Assembly (NCBI GenBank): GCA_021324235.1
Contig: JAJPJM010000178.1
Coordinates: 1 to 40,754, forward strand
Direction of reading: 5' to 3'
Length of the DNA stretch: 40,754 bases
From: Verrucomicrobiota bacterium
Lineage (GTDB): Bacteria > Verrucomicrobiota > Verrucomicrobiia > Limisphaerales > UBA11358
Shown here: positions 25,240 through 39,749 of the stretch, one piece after another
Layout: each line of letters starts with the position of its first letter
How positions within the stretch are numbered: the first letter of the stretch is position 1
Position numbers and translations under genes: made by a program
The notes under the pieces: generated by a model
The model's input: only the letters and a program-made list of their open reading frames with translations
Databases searched by the model: none
Told to the model about the DNA's origin: nothing

Positions 25240-25455
25240 TTACCGTAGCCGCCAGGTGATGCGCGCCTTGTTCAAATCGTAGGGTGACATCTCCATCTTC
25301 ACGCGGTCGCCGACGGTCAGGCGTACCCAGCGTTTGCGCATCTTGCCGCAGATCGTCGCCAGCACCAGGTGCTTGTTGTCGAGTTCCACCCGGAACATGG
25401 TGCCGGGCAGCACGAGGGTGACGCGGCCTTCCACTTCAATGTGTTCTTCTTTCAT
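25240..25455 (-). CDS. infA: Translation initiation factor IF-1
   Basis: From the ATG at 25455 the product is 71 aa, the normal IF-1 length. It shows the S1/OB-fold sequence: [40 protein letters not shown] and [22 protein letters not shown]-1 binds the ribosomal A site during initiation. A TTG five codons upstream is in frame but unneeded. The gene lies downstream of an RRM gene on the same strand but is separated from it by the terminator at 25529-25562, so it probably has its own promoter within the roughly 70-nt gap. Confidence 0.96.
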
Positions 25456-25528: not shown

Positions 25529-25562
25529 GAAAAGGCGGAGTCCGGTTCACCCGAACCCCGCC
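25529..25562 (-). terminator. Rho-independent terminator of the first RRM gene
   Basis: On the minus strand GGCGGGGTTCGG pairs with CCGGACTCCGCC (12 pairs, two of them G-U) around a GTGAA loop, followed by TTTTCGTTTG. Its sequence resembles the terminator of the second RRM gene at 39148-39187, as expected from duplication of the whole unit. Confidence 0.75.
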
Positions 25563-25584
25563 CTGAAATCCTGCGGTTGCTGGA

Positions 25585-25911
25585 TTAGTAGCGATTGCGA
25601 CTGCCACCGCCGCTGCCGCTCACGCGGAACTCCCGGCGCCCGCCGCCACCGCCGGCGCGTTCTTCACGCGGCTTGGCGACATTGACGGTGAGGGCGCGGC
25701 CGCCCAGTTGCGCGCCGTTCAGCGCGGCAATGGCCTTCTGCGCCTCTTCGGGCGTGCTCATGGTGATGAAACCAAAACCCCGCGGACGGCCGCTCACGCG
25801 ATCCATCATCAGGTTGGTTTCCGTGACCGTGCCGTGCGCCGCAAAGGCGTCGTTCAGGTCGTTTTCCGTGGTGTCGAAGGATAAATTCCCGACAAACAAT
25901 TTATTGCTCAT
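25585..25911 (-). CDS. Glycine-rich RRM RNA-binding protein, copy 1
   Basis: This 108-aa protein has a single RNA recognition motif at residues 3-80, with RNP2 LFVGNLSF and RNP1 RGFGFITM, both intact. A short tail rich in G, R and S follows. The layout matches cold-inducible Rbp proteins of cyanobacteria and other bacteria, which bind single-stranded RNA. It is about 80% identical over the RRM to the copy at 39205-39549. Both copies share leader, promoter and terminator sequence. AGGA lies about 14 nt before the ATG inside the conserved leader. Confidence 0.95.
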
Positions 25912-26041
25912 GTGATGTTTTACTGTCCTAGACTGAACTTTGCTGACCAGACTGTTCCCGTTTATCGGATTTCAAATCATCACTGAACCAGGTTCACCTG
26001 AGGATTTACCATGCCGTGGAAGCTCTGTGCTATCTAACAGA
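25912..26041 (-). promoter_or_regulatory. Conserved ~130-nt leader of RRM copy 1
   Basis: This non-coding stretch between the RRM start codon and the inferred transcription start aligns almost base for base with 39550-39682. Identical blocks include ATCGGATTTCAAATCATCAC, CTGAACCAGGTTCAC and ATCTAACAGAC (plus-strand reading). It contains the hairpin TGAAC-CTG-GTTCA. Its 5' end CTGTTAG can pair with CTAGGACAG, which holds the AGGA ribosome binding site. Such conservation outside the coding region points to RNA-level control such as cold response or autoregulation. Confidence 0.75.
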
Positions 26042-26048
26042 CCAGCCC

Positions 26049-30209: not shown

Positions 30210-33200
30210 ATGAACTTTGCCCATTTCTTCATCCGCCGCCCGATTTTCGCCGGCGTGCTGTCCATCGCCATTTTCATCATGGGGTTGCTGGCCATGTTCC
30301 GGCTCCCCATCGCCGAGTATCCGGAGGTGGTGCCGCCCACGGTGGTCGTGCGCGCGACCTTCCCGGGCGCCACTCCCAAAACCATTGCCGAAACCGTCGC
30401 CTCGCCGCTGGAACAGGCCATCAACGGCGTGGAAGGGTCGCTTTACATGTTTTCACAAGCGACCGCCGACGGCGTGATGACGCTGACCGTGACCTTCAAG
30501 CTGGGCACGGATCCGGACCAGGCCCAGGTGCAGGTGCAGAACCGGGTTCAGCAGGCGTTGCCCAAGCTGCCCGAGGAAGTGCGTGACCTGGGCGTCACCA
30601 CGACCAAGCAATCGCCCGATCTTACGATGGTCGTCCATCTGTTTTCGCCCAACAACCGGTACGACGAGGTTTATGTCCGCAACTATGCGACCTTGCAGGT
30701 GAAGGACGCCCTGGCGCGCATCCCCGGTGCCGGCGACGTGGAAGTGTTCGGTTCGGGCGATTACGCCATGCGCATCTGGCTCAACCCGGACAAACTCGCG
30801 GCCCGCAACCTGACCGCCAGCGACGTCGTGGCCGCCATCCGGGAACAGAATGTCCAGGTGGCCGGCGGCATCATCGGCCAGCCGCCTGTCCGCGATCCGG
30901 TGAATTTTGAATTGCTGGTCAACGTCAAGGGCCGGCTGACCACGGAGGAGGAATTCGGCAACATCATCGTGAAGACCGGGCCCAACGGCGAAAAAACCCT
31001 GTTGAAGGACGTGGCCCGCATCGAATTGGGCGCCGGCGATTACTCGCTCCGGTCATTACTGAACAATAAGACGGCGGTGGCGTTGCCCATCTTCCAAACG
31101 CCCGGCGCCAATGCGTTGCAGCTTTCCACCGACGTCCGCCGCACGATGGAGGAACTGAAGAAGAATTTCCCCGAGGGCATTGACTACTCGGTGGTCTATG
31201 ACCCGACGGTCTTCGTCCGGCATTCGATTACCGCGGTGGTGCATACGCTGTTCGAGGCACTGCTGCTGGTGGTGCTGGTGGTCATCATTTTCCTGCAAAC
31301 CTGGCGCGCGGCCATCATCCCGCTGGCCGCCGTGCCGGTGTCGCTGGTGGGCACGTTTACGATGATGCTCCTCTTCGGCTTCAGCATCAATGCGCTGTCG
31401 CTCTTTGGACTGGTGCTGGCCATCGGCATCGTCGTGGATGACGCCATCGTCGTGGTGGAAAACGTCGAGCGGAACATCGCGCGCGGTTTGTCGTCATTGG
31501 AAGCCGCCCGGGTGGCCATGAATGAAGTGACCGGACCGATTGTGGCCACGGCGCTCGTGTTGTGCGCGGTGTTCATCCCCACCGCCTTCATCAGCGGTCT
31601 CACCGGGCAGTTCTACAAGCAATTTGCCATCACCATTGCCATCTCCACGGTCATCTCCGCGTTCAATTCCCTGACGCTGTCACCGGCGCTCTGTGCGGTG
31701 TTGCTCAAGGACCATCACGCGCCCAAGGACTGGCTCTGGCGCGGCATGGACGGGTTGTTCGGATGGTTGTTTCGTCCCTTCAACCGGGCCTTCGCCTGGT
31801 CGGGTGAGAAATACGGTGCCGGTGTCAAGGCCGTGCTCCGCAAAAGCGCCATCGCGCTGGTGGTTTATGGCGGTCTGGTCCTGCTGACCGGCTGGAGCTT
31901 CGAGAACATCCCCACTGGCTTTGTGCCGACCCAGGACAAACAATATCTCATCGCCTTCGCGCAACTGCCCGAGGCGGCGTCGCTCAACCGCACCGAAACC
32001 GTCATCCGTCGGATGTCCGACATCGGACTCAAACAACCCGGCGTGGATTCGGCGGTGGCGTTTCCCGGATTAAGCATCAACGGTTTCAGCGTCGCGGCGA
32101 ATTCCGGCATCGTCTTTTTCACCTTGAAGCCGTTCGAGGAGCGCCGCACCCCAGACCTGAGCGGACCGGCGATTGCGGCCGCGCTGAACCAAAAACTTTC
32201 GAGCATCCAGGATGCCTTTGTTCTCACCGTTCCGCCGCCGGCGGTGATGGGACTGGGTACGTTCGGCGGGTTCAAGTTGTATGTCGAGGACCGCGCCGGT
32301 CTGGGTTATGACGCCCTTTATCAAAATCTGGAGTCGTTGATGGGCAAGGGCAATCAGACGCCCGCCCTGGCCGGCTTGTTCTCCACCTTCACCGTCAATG
32401 TTCCGCAACTGGACGCGGACGTGGACCGCGAGAAGGCCAAAACGGAAGGCGTACCGCTGGGGAACCTCTTCGACACCCTGCAGATTTATCTGGGTTCGCT
32501 GTACGTGAACGACTTCAACCGGTTCGGCCGCACCTACGAAGTCATCGCCCAGGCGGACTCGCAGTTCCGCGAACATCCCGAGGACATCACCCGGCTCAAG
32601 ACCCGGAACGATCAGGGTGAGATGGTGCCGCTCGGCGCCCTGGTCAAGGTGACGGAAGCCCACGGACCGGACCGGGTGATGCGGTACAACGGTTATCCTG
32701 CGGCCGAGGTCAACGGCGGTCCGGCTCCCGGTTACAGTTCGGGCCAGGCGGAAGCGGCCATGGCCAAAATCGCGGATCAAAATCTGCCGCGCGGCATGAC
32801 CTACGAATGGACCGATCTGACCTACCAGCGCATTCTGGCCGGCAATACCGCCGTCTTTGTCGGGCCGCTCTGCATCCTGCTGGTGTTCCTGGTACTGGCC
32901 GCGTTGTATGAAAGTTTCCGCCTGCCGCTGGCCATCATTCTCATCGTGCCAATGTGCCTGTTATTTGCCATCACCGGCGTGTGGCTCAAGGGCAGCGACA
33001 ACAACATTTTCACGCAAATCGGATTCATCGTGCTCGTTGGCCTGGCGTGCAAAAACGCCATCCTGATCGTCGAATTTGCCAAGCGCAAACAGGACGAGGG
33101 CCTGTCGCCGTTCGATGCGGCCATCGAGGCCTGCCGCCTGCGGTTGCGGCCGATCCTGATGACCTCCATCGCCTTCATCGCGGGCGTTTTTCCGCTGGTG

Positions 33201-34850
33201 GTTTCGCATGGTGCCGGCGCCGAGATGCGCCAGGCCATGGGCATTGCCGTGTTTTCCGGCATGATCGGCGTGACCCTCTTTGGACTGTTCCTGACACCCG
33301 TGTTTTACGTCACGTTGATGAAGCTCGGGTTGAAGAAAAAACCGGCGCCGGAAACAAAAGGCCTCGGCCTCGGTTCCGCGGGCGCCACCGCTGGAATCGT
33401 GACCTTGTTGCTGCTGTTCGCCTTTATGCCTGCACGCGCCGGCTGGCTGACAATCGGCCCGGACTACCAGTCGCCGACAAATTCCGTTCCGGCGGCTTAC
33501 AAAGCGGCCGACCTGGGTTCCTGGAAGGAGGGCCGGCCGCTGGACACGGTGCCGAAGGGAAACTGGTGGGCGATTTACAACGATACCAACCTGAATGCGT
33601 TGGAGGCCCGGGCGTTGTCAGCCAATCAGGAACTCCAGGCCGCCATCGCGCGCGTGGACCAGTCGCGGGCCACGGCGCGGGTGGCCCGCAGCGCCTTGCT
33701 GCCCGGGCTTGATCTGGCCCCCAGTTTTGACCGGCAACGCTATTCGCCGAATGCCGAGCCCAGCTTCGGCAGCTTGACGGCCAGCACCTTCAGCACCCCG
33801 CTGGACCTGAGCTACGAAGTGGATTTATGGGGCCGCGTGCGGCGCGGTTTTGAAAGTGCCCGGGCGGATGCCCAGGCCTCCCTTGCGGATTTTTACAATG
33901 TACTGCTGACGCTCCAATCCGACGTGGCGCAGAATTATTTTGCATTGCGATCGCTCGACGCGGAAATCGCCACGGTGACCGGCACGGTGGAACTGCGCCG
34001 GGAACAGGTCAAGCTGGTGCGCAGCCGCTACGACGGAGGCATCGGCAGCCAATTGGAAGTGGCCCAGGCCGAAACCGAACTGGCCACCACCGAGGCCGAG
34101 GCGGCGTCGCTGGCCCAACGGCGCGACGAGCTGGAAAATGCCATCGCCATTCTGGTGGGCTCCAACCCGTCCGATTTTCACCTGCCAGCCCTCAACCCCG
34201 GCAGTTGGGCGCCGCCGCCACCGATGATTCCCGCGGGTCTGCCGGCCGACCTGCTCGAACGGCGGCCGGATGTGGCTGCAGCGGAACGGAAACTGGCATC
34301 GGCCAATGCCCAAATCGGTGTCGCCAAAGCCGCGTTTTTTCCCGTGCTCACCCTGACCGGCTCGGGCGGTTATGTCAGCGGTGACCTCGACACCCTGTTC
34401 AACTGGGACAGTCGCACCTGGTCCTTTGGACCAAGTGTTTCACTGCCGATTTTTGCCGGCGGCCGCAACCGGGCAAATTACAAACGGTCGCAGGCGGCCT
34501 ATACGGAGGCGGTCGCGTTGTATCGTCAGCAGGTGCTTGTGGCCTTCGGGGACGTCGAGGACAGCCTTTCCGACATCCGCCATCTGGCCGATCAGGCCGA
34601 GGCGCAGGAACGGGCCGTGGCTAACGCGCGCCGCGCCGCCGGCCTGGCCGACGACCGCTACCGTTCCGGCATTGTCAGTTATATCGAGGTGGTGGATGCC
34701 GACCGCGACGCGTTGACCGCCGAGCGGGCCAACGCCGAACTGGCCGGCCAGCGGCTGATCGCTTCGGTCCAACTCATCAAAGCCCTTGGCGGCGGATGGG
34801 AAACCACGGCCTTGCAACCGTCGCTGGCCCAAATGGAGGCCCGCAAATAA
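30210..34850 (+). CDS. Natural fusion of RND permease (AcrB-type) and outer-membrane factor (OprM/NodT-type)
   Basis: The single 1546-aa frame holds two full proteins. Residues 1-1050 are an HAE1 RND permease: first helix FIRRPIFAGVLSIAIFIMG, the TM4 proton-relay pair Asp410-Asp411 (GIVVDDAIVVVENVERN), and TM10 Lys948 (GLACKNAILIVEFAK). Residues 1078-1546 are a TolC-like channel opening TIGPDYQSP, the OprM/NodT hallmark, with DLSYEVDLWGRVRRGFESAR and ADDRYRSGIVSYIEVVDADR. The joint (about 1050-1078) is KKKPAPETKG, then a hydrophobic run ending FAFMPARAG. This looks like a former signal peptide with a possible signal-peptidase site after Ala1077; the usual lipid-modified Cys is missing. The permease's partner is the adaptor upstream. 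Confidence 0.95.
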   Translation: MNFAHFFIRRPIFAGVLSIAIFIMGLLAMFRLPIAEYPEVVPPTVVVRATFPGATPKTIAETVASPLEQAINGVEGSLYMFSQATADGVMTLTVTFKLGTDPDQAQVQVQNRVQQALPKLPEEVRDLGVTTTKQSPDLTMVVHLFSPNNRYDEVYVRNYATLQVKDALARIPGAGDVEVFGSGDYAMRIWLNPDKLAARNLTASDVVAAIREQNVQVAGGIIGQPPVRDPVNFELLVNVKGRLTTEEEFGNIIVKTGPNGEKTLLKDVARIELGAGDYSLRSLLNNKTAVALPIFQTPGANALQLSTDVRRTMEELKKNFPEGIDYSVVYDPTVFVRHSITAVVHTLFEALLLVVLVVIIFLQTWRAAIIPLAAVPVSLVGTFTMMLLFGFSINALSLFGLVLAIGIVVDDAIVVVENVERNIARGLSSLEAARVAMNEVTGPIVATALVLCAVFIPTAFISGLTGQFYKQFAITIAISTVISAFNSLTLSPALCAVLLKDHHAPKDWLWRGMDGLFGWLFRPFNRAFAWSGEKYGAGVKAVLRKSAIALVVYGGLVLLTGWSFENIPTGFVPTQDKQYLIAFAQLPEAASLNRTETVIRRMSDIGLKQPGVDSAVAFPGLSINGFSVAANSGIVFFTLKPFEERRTPDLSGPAIAAALNQKLSSIQDAFVLTVPPPAVMGLGTFGGFKLYVEDRAGLGYDALYQNLESLMGKGNQTPALAGLFSTFTVNVPQLDADVDREKAKTEGVPLGNLFDTLQIYLGSLYVNDFNRFGRTYEVIAQADSQFREHPEDITRLKTRNDQGEMVPLGALVKVTEAHGPDRVMRYNGYPAAEVNGGPAPGYSSGQAEAAMAKIADQNLPRGMTYEWTDLTYQRILAGNTAVFVGPLCILLVFLVLAALYESFRLPLAIILIVPMCLLFAITGVWLKGSDNNIFTQIGFIVLVGLACKNAILIVEFAKRKQDEGLSPFDAAIEACRLRLRPILMTSIAFIAGVFPLVVSHGAGAEMRQAMGIAVFSGMIGVTLFGLFLTPVFYVTLMKLGLKKKPAPETKGLGLGSAGATAGIVTLLLLFAFMPARAGWLTIGPDYQSPTNSVPAAYKAADLGSWKEGRPLDTVPKGNWWAIYNDTNLNALEARALSANQELQAAIARVDQSRATARVARSALLPGLDLAPSFDRQRYSPNAEPSFGSLTASTFSTPLDLSYEVDLWGRVRRGFESARADAQASLADFYNVLLTLQSDVAQNYFALRSLDAEIATVTGTVELRREQVKLVRSRYDGGIGSQLEVAQAETELATTEAEAASLAQRRDELENAIAILVGSNPSDFHLPALNPGSWAPPPPMIPAGLPADLLERRPDVAAAERKLASANAQIGVAKAAFFPVLTLTGSGGYVSGDLDTLFNWDSRTWSFGPSVSLPIFAGGRNRANYKRSQAAYTEAVALYRQQVLVAFGDVEDSLSDIRHLADQAEAQERAVANARRAAGLADDRYRSGIVSYIEVVDADRDALTAERANAELAGQRLIASVQLIKALGGGWETTALQPSLAQMEARK

Positions 34851-39204: not shown

Positions 39205-39549
39205 TCAGTAGCGTTCGCGACGTCCACCGCCACCACCGCCACCGCCGTATCCACCACCACCACCACGGCGTCCACCGCCACCGCCGCCGGGGGCGCGTTC
39301 TTCACGCGGCCGGGCCACGTTGACTGTGAGGGCGCGACCGTCCATTTCCTTGCCGTTCAGGGCCTCAATGGCCTTCTGCGCTTCCTCGGGTGAGCTCATG
39401 GTCACAAAACCAAAACCGCGGGGGCGGCCGGTTTCGCGATCCATCATGAGGTTGGTTTCCACGACCGTGCCGTGCGCGGCGAACGCGTCGTTCAGGTCGT
39501 TTTCGGTGGTATTGAAGGAAAGATTTCCTACAAACAATTTGCTGCTCAT
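39205..39549 (-). CDS. Glycine-rich RRM RNA-binding protein, copy 2
   Basis: This 114-aa protein has one RNA recognition motif (residues 3-80) with RNP2 LFVGNLSF and RNP1 RGFGFVTM. Its tail is almost pure glycine with R and Y ([10 protein letters not shown]), longer than in copy 1. Eukaryotic-like glycine-rich RNA-binding proteins and cyanobacterial Rbp proteins share this layout and often respond to cold. The RRM is nearly the same as copy 1 at 25585-25911. Leader, promoter and terminator are also shared, so the whole transcription unit was duplicated. AGGA lies in the leader upstream of the ATG. Confidence 0.95.
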
Positions 39550-39682
39550 ATGATGTTTTTACTGTCCTAGACTAAACTTTGCTTTTACCAGACTGTTTCC
39601 GTTGATCGGATTTCAAATCATCACTGAACCAGGTTCACTTGAAGATTTACCATGCCTTTAAAGAGACAAGCCATCTAACAGA
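39550..39682 (-). promoter_or_regulatory. Conserved ~130-nt leader of RRM copy 2
   Basis: This is the homologue of the leader at 25912-26041, with long identical blocks and only a few substitutions and small indels. Both ends keep the CTGTTAG and CTAGGACAG segments that could pair and hide the ribosome binding site. The start-codon-proximal part TACTGTCCTAGACT is also identical. Confidence 0.75.
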
Positions 39683-39689
39683 CGCGTGA

Positions 39690-39717
39690 AGTATGGCAGA
39701 TTCCAATGAAATGGCAA
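39690..39717 (-). promoter_or_regulatory. Promoter of RRM copy 2
   Basis: On the minus strand TTGCCA (39717-39712) and CATACT (39695-39690) are 16 nt apart, matching the layout of copy 1. The shared bases between them (TGGAA, CTGC/CAGC) suggest common descent. Confidence 0.5.
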
Positions 39718-39749
39718 GAACCATCGACAACTTTTTTTAATCCGATGGG

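Follow-up and report, generated by a model that had tools for sequence, protein, structure and literature searches.

A new family of structured leader RNAs before RRM genes of Verrucomicrobia: a likely translational switch with a probable role in cold adaptation

Results

Two RRM genes of the window share a conserved leader

The window, that is, the whole 40,754-nucleotide stretch of DNA analyzed here, carries two RRM genes on its reverse strand, each preceded by a copy of the same leader element. The features are collected in Table 1. The covariance-model match of leader copy 2 begins close to the putative transcript start and ends at codon 4 of the RRM gene. For infA, the start was set at the ATG of MKEEH. 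Directly upstream of copy 2 there is a gene for a fatty-acid desaturase. The consensus scan that gave the sigma-70-like site upstream of copy 2 found no such site upstream of leader copy 1. Between RRM copy 1 and infA, a terminator-like hairpin with 14 pairs and a T-poor tail is present at 25532-25564(-); the terminator scan found this 1 hairpin there versus 1.4 in shuffles. Because the hairpin lies between the two genes, their co-transcription is uncertain. Elsewhere in the window, a single reading frame at 30210-34850(+) fuses AcrB-type efflux pump and outer-membrane efflux protein domains.

Table 1. Features of the window, and loci of class II leaders in other genomes. R1 and R2 are the covariance models described in the text.
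Feature	Position or loci	Strand	Basis
Leader element copy 1	25900..26044	-	R1 148.4 bits, R2 131.9 bits
P1 closing stem copy 1 (5′ strand 26010-26016, 3′ strand 25949-25954)	25949..26016	-	Covariation
P2 hairpin copy 1	25974..26007	-	Consensus fold and covariation
P3 hairpin copy 1, UCCG-AUAAA-CGGG	25957..25969	-	Consensus fold and model-fitted alignment
Proposed switch strand (P2 3′ strand) copy 1	25973..25983	-	Complementary to start-codon region
Start-codon region copy 1, AAACAUCAC-AUG, can pair with switch strand	25909..25920	-	Complementarity
RRM gene copy 1	25585..25911	-	PF00076 1e-21
infA (IF-1), the gene that follows RRM copy 1	25240..25455	-	PF01176 2.8e-22; recurrent neighbour
Leader element copy 2	39538..39685	-	Covariance-model match, R1 159.1 bits, R2 138.6 bits
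P1 closing stem copy 2 (5′ strand 39651-39657, 3′ strand 39590-39595)	39590..39657	-	Covariation
P2 hairpin copy 2, AAAUCUUCA..UGAACCUGGUUCA..GUGAUGAUUU	39615..39648	-	Consensus fold and covariation
P3 hairpin copy 2, UCCG-AUCAA-CGGA	39598..39610	-	Consensus fold and model-fitted alignment
Proposed switch strand (P2 3′ strand) copy 2	39614..39624	-	Complementary to start-codon region
Start-codon region copy 2, AAACAUCAU-AUG, can pair with switch strand	39547..39558	-	Complementarity
RRM gene copy 2, glycine-rich tail	39205..39549	-	PF00076 3.9e-24
Promoter-like site TTGCCA-16-CATACT (sigma-70-like), upstream of copy 2	39690..39717	-	Consensus scan only
Class II leaders	L197-L202, L206, L207, L209, L210, L212, L216-L218, L221, L222, L225, L226		
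Class II leaders, weaker	L196, L204, L227		

The leaders at 25912-26041(-) and 39550-39682(-) can be aligned over their full length, as an earlier sequence-only reading of this DNA had claimed: 113 of the 130 positions are identical (87%), with 3 gap positions. That reading also described identical blocks of up to 20 nt. The blocks are present, but the longest is 34 nt (GTGAACCTGGTTCAGTGATGATTTGAAATCCGAT). The weaker similarity that it followed on through the promoters was likewise seen upstream of both leaders, in a promoter-like stretch. Its argument for function, namely that the leader is conserved beyond expectation, holds as well, with 87% identity in the leaders versus 65% (22 of 34) at the four-fold sites of the two RRM genes. 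When the third genomic copy was used for comparison, the values for leader and four-fold sites were 90% versus 67% and 96% versus 75%. Furthermore, 1416 random pairs of copies were compared (filters had removed 84 of the 1500 drawn): a 36-nt core was 82% identical versus 46% for synonymous sites, and the core was higher in 1410 of the 1416 pairs.

A whole-genome search gave 4 strong leader copies in the own genome, every one before an RRM gene, and 3 RRM domain matches; the fourth leader copy is at a contig end, where the RRM start is still visible. Thus, the window pair is part of a set of four: the two RRM genes do share a leader, but the genome total is four copies and not two. A fifth, weak match (L008) lies inside a gene and is probably a chance match. 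Several paralogous copies in one genome might also be produced by a recent duplication or gene conversion of promoter and gene, with a leader RNA devoid of function. We regard the chance of this as close to negligible: it is contradicted by the higher conservation of the leader than of synonymous sites, which extends to distant copies, and by the compensatory changes described in the next section.

The leader folds as a three-way junction

RNAalifold was applied to 33 copies of the leader and gave three helices. The leader folds as a three-way junction with a closing stem (P1), a long hairpin (P2) and a short hairpin (P3), and this structure is well supported. In alignment A2 of 62 copies, which was fitted to the covariance model and for that reason favours the structure, the share of paired cells is 96.8%, and both sides change in 12 of the 22 pairs; 0 of 500 shuffles reached this result. 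When 39 diverse copies were aligned plainly with MAFFT, the share of paired cells was 91.5% versus 84.7% in shuffled alignments, and there were 59 double-change cells versus 22, with 0 of 500 shuffles reaching the observed value in each case. The number of doubly changed pairs in this alignment was 10 versus 7.6, which 25 of 500 shuffles reached. Each of the three outer P1 pairs is lost in 10-13 of the 39 copies, and P3 hardly varies among them. When the partner strands were slid, pairing fell to about 28-53% in both covariation tests. In one copy (L062), the entire tip of P2 is deleted and the base pairs are kept. The sequence GAAA, which joins P2 and P3, is highly conserved. Folding of single leader sequences was no better than that of shuffles (z -0.11); it is uninformative and was dropped as evidence for structure.

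An upstream reading frame of 10 codons is present in the two window copies (AUGGUAAAUCYUCARGUGAACCUGGUUCAGUGA) and also in the third genomic copy, and a short coding region of this kind might act on the RRM gene by translational coupling. However, indels break the frame in the close relatives L025, L027 and L032, and in other families its AUG is replaced by CUG, UUG and ACG, among others. The frame was therefore rejected as a conserved feature. What is conserved is the pairing and not the reading frame, and translational coupling is very improbable.

The element is widespread in the class and precedes RRM genes

A DNA search with the leader gave matches in 53 of 59 genomes (the own genome and 58 relatives), and the copies read from this search and from the own genome all run into an RRM start (33 of 33). 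From 33 copies we built covariance model R1, and from 62 copies model R2; the element model has 145 positions. R1 matched in 34 of 387 genomes of the phylum, and an RRM reading frame was directly downstream at all 29 of the new loci fetched. One R1 match (G346, E 9.4e-4) is outside the class; its locus was left out of the gene-context counts. R2 found 125 copies in 55 of the 59 genomes, with up to 6 copies per genome, and 192 of 384 genomes of the class carry the element.

Three sets, which overlap in part, were used for the association with genes. In the 59 genomes, 114 of the 125 R2 copies are directly before an RRM domain among the at least 150 PF00076 matches listed. The remaining 11 comprise 5 copies cut by contig ends, 4 before something other than RRM, 1 followed by an assembly gap and then RRM, and 1 before a degraded RRM frame. 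In the class-wide searches, where the R2 loci are the best matches listed, 109 of 115 loci were assigned to RRM by script and 4 more by reading (L234, L242, L252 and L257, where the element is near a contig end; these were set to RRM from the sequence). An exact pattern scan of named genomes gave at least 119 matches in at least 118 stretches. RRM genes follow 111 of the 119, with the RRM domain at a fixed position, 52-77 nt from the pattern start; the other 8 are 3 cut-off matches, 1 degraded RRM frame, 1 infC and 3 chance matches without P2. Thus, the covariance-model search that the sequence-only reading had suggested was run, with matches mainly before RRM genes and stems that covary. The leader is better conserved than synonymous sites and many genomes carry it before RRM genes, which is the opposite of the two outcomes that the same reading had named as speaking against its proposal, and a cis-acting RNA element is strongly supported.

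The titles of 80 of the 118 pattern stretches mostly name Verrucomicrobia or a subgroup, and 6 say only 'bacterium'; Chlorobi is absent from these 80 titles listed of at least 118 stretches. Verrucomicrobium sp. BvORR034 (locus L074) is among the named carriers. On three contigs labelled Acidobacteria or Proteobacteria (L085, L130 and L132), which are perhaps mislabelled bins, the element is accompanied by an RRM gene. The exact pattern was absent from viral contigs, and a phage origin of the element was rejected on this ground.

All 20 tested genomes without an R1 or R2 match still have RRM genes. When 12 of the 34 RRM genes of element-negative genomes were searched with R2 (the start was not found for 2 of the 12), 4 loci gave weak scores directly before the gene (L377, L378, L380 and L381; 13.6-15.8 bits, E 0.15-0.54) and a P3-like hairpin was recognisable. 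These leaders may be diverged relatives of the element.

Comparison with known RNA families

No known Rfam family overlaps the leader, and membership in one was rejected accordingly. The Chlorobi-RRM motif (RF01697) lies before RRM genes and is, like the leader described here, a candidate cis-regulatory RNA tied to this gene family. Its model has 73 positions as against 145 here, and the two are set apart by covariance-model searches rather than by a direct comparison of structures. RF01697 gave no leader match at 24 distinct loci, 21 of this element and 3 of class II (E<=5 for 7 loci, E<=3 for 20 loci). In 40 genomes nothing exceeded its cut-off, the best score being 19.3 bits versus 45. Table 1 of Weinberg et al. 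(2010, PMC2864571) marks the Chlorobi-RRM motif with 'y' for RNA and 'y' for cis-regulatory and places it in Chlorobi. Among the open-licence PubMed Central matches listed, no published description of the present element was found.

Genes under the element

Seven copies precede something other than an RRM gene, and 4 of the 7 genes were identified by Pfam: IF-1 (L187), IF-3 (L073), a DEAD-box helicase (L280) and a fatty-acid desaturase (L231). The other three downstream frames (L189/L230, L232 and L290) gave no Pfam match; the L189 frame follows a possible remnant of an RRM start. The helicase gene of L280 is directly under the leader, and approximately its first 26 codons look like the beginning of an RRM protein. 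This is an apparent leader capture, of the kind that would result if a deletion had joined a downstream helicase gene to the leader. The IF-1 and helicase cases may both be leader captures after loss of the RRM gene. At least 1200 nt of sequence follow 162 of the copies; in 64 of these, infA is found downstream of the RRM gene on the same strand, as at window copy 1, and in 3 a DEAD-box helicase recognised from sequence follows the RRM gene. infA is 339-659 nt from the RRM start codon (66 distances; the distance of 59 nt for L029 does not fit its sequence and was set aside).

Helicase and desaturase genes are cold genes. E. coli IF1 and IF3 are stated to rise in the cold (PMC6511846), and a cyanobacterial RRM protein, Rbp1, is described as required for cold adaptation (PMC9333190); Rbp1 has a glycine-rich tail, like the RRM proteins here. 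The sequence-only reading had compared the leader with those of cold-shock genes. This comparison is strengthened by the non-RRM genes that were identified under the element, which encode IF-1, IF-3, a DEAD-box helicase and a fatty-acid desaturase. The same genes bear on another explanation, a metabolite- or ion-binding riboswitch with the strand-exchange output proposed below. A compact three-way junction and the conserved GAAA would suit a riboswitch, and the start-codon region might serve as its expression platform. However, the identified genes share a theme of translation and membrane in the cold, with no metabolite or transporter among them, and most copies precede one gene family. We consider a riboswitch unlikely.

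A second leader on a sister RRM group

Among the 150 RRM genes listed, 36 are without an R2 match, and 21 of these 36 carry a different leader (class II). Upstream stretches were taken for 34 of the 36. The 21 leaders consist of the 18 matches from which model R3 was built and 3 more (Table 1). A class II leader appears to possess a long closing stem and three inner hairpins, as drawn by hand from single folds. It is located before the genes of a sister RRM group within the same order and occurs in 23 of the 59 genomes; it was not found in the own genome. R3 gave 0 matches in 374 phylum genomes, where strict filters were used, so the empty result shows little. One class II match (G003:C100; L372, approximately 1500-1622) is before an anonymous frame and then a thioredoxin-like frame instead of RRM, and the match G054:C679 was left out of the locus reading.

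These distributions bear on autoregulation, in which the RRM protein would bind its own mRNA, either at the three-way junction or at the freed start region, and would thereby repress or activate translation. Autoregulatory ribosomal-protein-type leaders are structured and occur mainly on genes of one RNA-binding protein family, and the element resembles them in this respect; unlike them, it has non-RRM targets, and protein binding here is putative. Most copies precede RRM genes, with up to 6 copies in one genome, which speaks for autoregulation. In addition, the Bacteroides rbpB mRNA carries an RbpB binding site, which its authors regard as possible autoregulation (PMC11697453), and CspA is described as interacting with and stimulating its own structured mRNA (PMC9947658). 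On the other hand, non-RRM targets would need regulation in trans, and 21 of the 36 listed RRM genes that lack an R2 match have the quite different class II leader. Since the element also precedes genes other than RRM, autoregulation alone does not account for all of its copies; the genes infA, infC, helicase and desaturase could be further members of a protein-controlled set, and a temperature effect could act jointly. We regard autoregulation as possible, and as the second candidate after the switch on translation initiation.

A proposed strand exchange at the start codon

The 3′ strand of P2 is GUGAUGAUUU, and the bases before the start codon are AAUCAUCAC or similar. In 159 copies, pairing of the P2 3′ strand with its own start region had a mean energy of -9.15 kcal/mol, versus -4.40 with shuffled start regions and -8.27 kcal/mol (sd 0.11) when start regions were exchanged between copies. 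In 193 copies the mean was -8.93 kcal/mol versus -4.95 at 499 other gene starts from the same loci, and a duplex of -7 kcal/mol was reached by 78% versus 19%. For the 70 copies (30 types) with a changed switch strand, own pairing was -7.22 versus -6.18 (sd 0.40) with re-dealt start regions. This is approximately 2.6 sd, and we take it as moderate evidence of switch covariation because at least one of 300 permutations went below the observed value. This permutation control was used in place of a double-mutant-cycle score, which is biased by an energy floor. The telling cases are L346, L063, L067, L103, L061 and L047; there is almost no switch pairing in the lineages L335, L336, L021, L015 and L132. 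At non-RRM genes, complementarity was -8.3 for infA and -8.5 kcal/mol for the helicase, and weak for the desaturase (-5.0), infC (-3.7, start codon uncertain) and one unknown frame (-0.6).

These energies suggest that the start region tends to imitate the P2 5′ strand and can compete with it for the P2 3′ strand, and they moderately support a strand-exchange switch on translation initiation. In the OFF state, GUGAUGAUUU would pair with the AAUCAUCAC-AUG region and hide the start codon. In the ON state, it would pair with the P2 5′ strand and leave the start codon free.

In nearest-neighbour folding of 60 of the 159 leaders, the switch strand splits between its two partners. When the two states were enforced in 70 copies (the three own-genome copies were put first and are possibly counted twice), the mean difference was 0.0 at 37 °C and 1.0 kcal/mol toward P2 at 5 °C. 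The spread was wide (ddG sd 4-6 kcal/mol), and P2 gained on cooling in 46 of the 70. By folding energies, window copy 1 favours OFF and copy 2 favours ON at every temperature tested. Thus, temperature folding gives a weak trend only, with small predicted shifts; the energies fit a balanced switch and do not demonstrate a thermosensor.

Discussion

We propose that the leader is a cis-regulatory RNA that would control translation initiation of cold-growth genes by strand exchange, and we give this proposal a probability of roughly 0.55. It is the best explanation for the structure, covariation, gene association and conserved complementarity found computationally. From these we infer that the two states interconvert and that cooling, perhaps aided by the RRM protein, would shift the RNA to the ON state. 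The target set consists mainly of small RRM proteins, often with infA downstream, and sometimes of IF-1, IF-3, a DEAD-box helicase or a fatty-acid desaturase. Cold as the trigger is suggested by this gene association, and the cold-adaptation reading derives from the identity of the associated genes alone.

The E. coli cspA mRNA is described as a thermosensor whose ribosome-binding site is more accessible in one of two alternative folds than in the other (PMC9947658). As proposed here, alternative leader folds act on the gene for a small RNA-binding protein, cold-induced in that case. The present leader belongs to another gene family and has no Rfam match. Moreover, the proposed switch is one short strand shared by a junction helix and the start codon, and the temperature response is putative.

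On a larger scale, Verrucomicrobia might possess a cold-response system made of the class I junction leaders, which occur in half of the sampled genomes of the class and can recruit IF-1, IF-3, DEAD-box helicase and desaturase, together with the unrelated class II leader on the sister RRM group in one order. We put this forward tentatively, at odds slightly below even.

In conclusion, the leader represents a new RNA family, which is spread through a class of largely uncultured bacteria, likely acts as a translational switch and probably has a role in cold adaptation. If the proposal is true, the leader would join the small number of leader RNAs that are linked to RRM proteins of bacteria. Its target list, with RRM, IF-1, IF-3, helicase and desaturase, gives the testable idea that translation is retuned in the cold, and the leader would illustrate how, in nature, a single strand of ten bases may pair either within an RNA junction or with the start codon.
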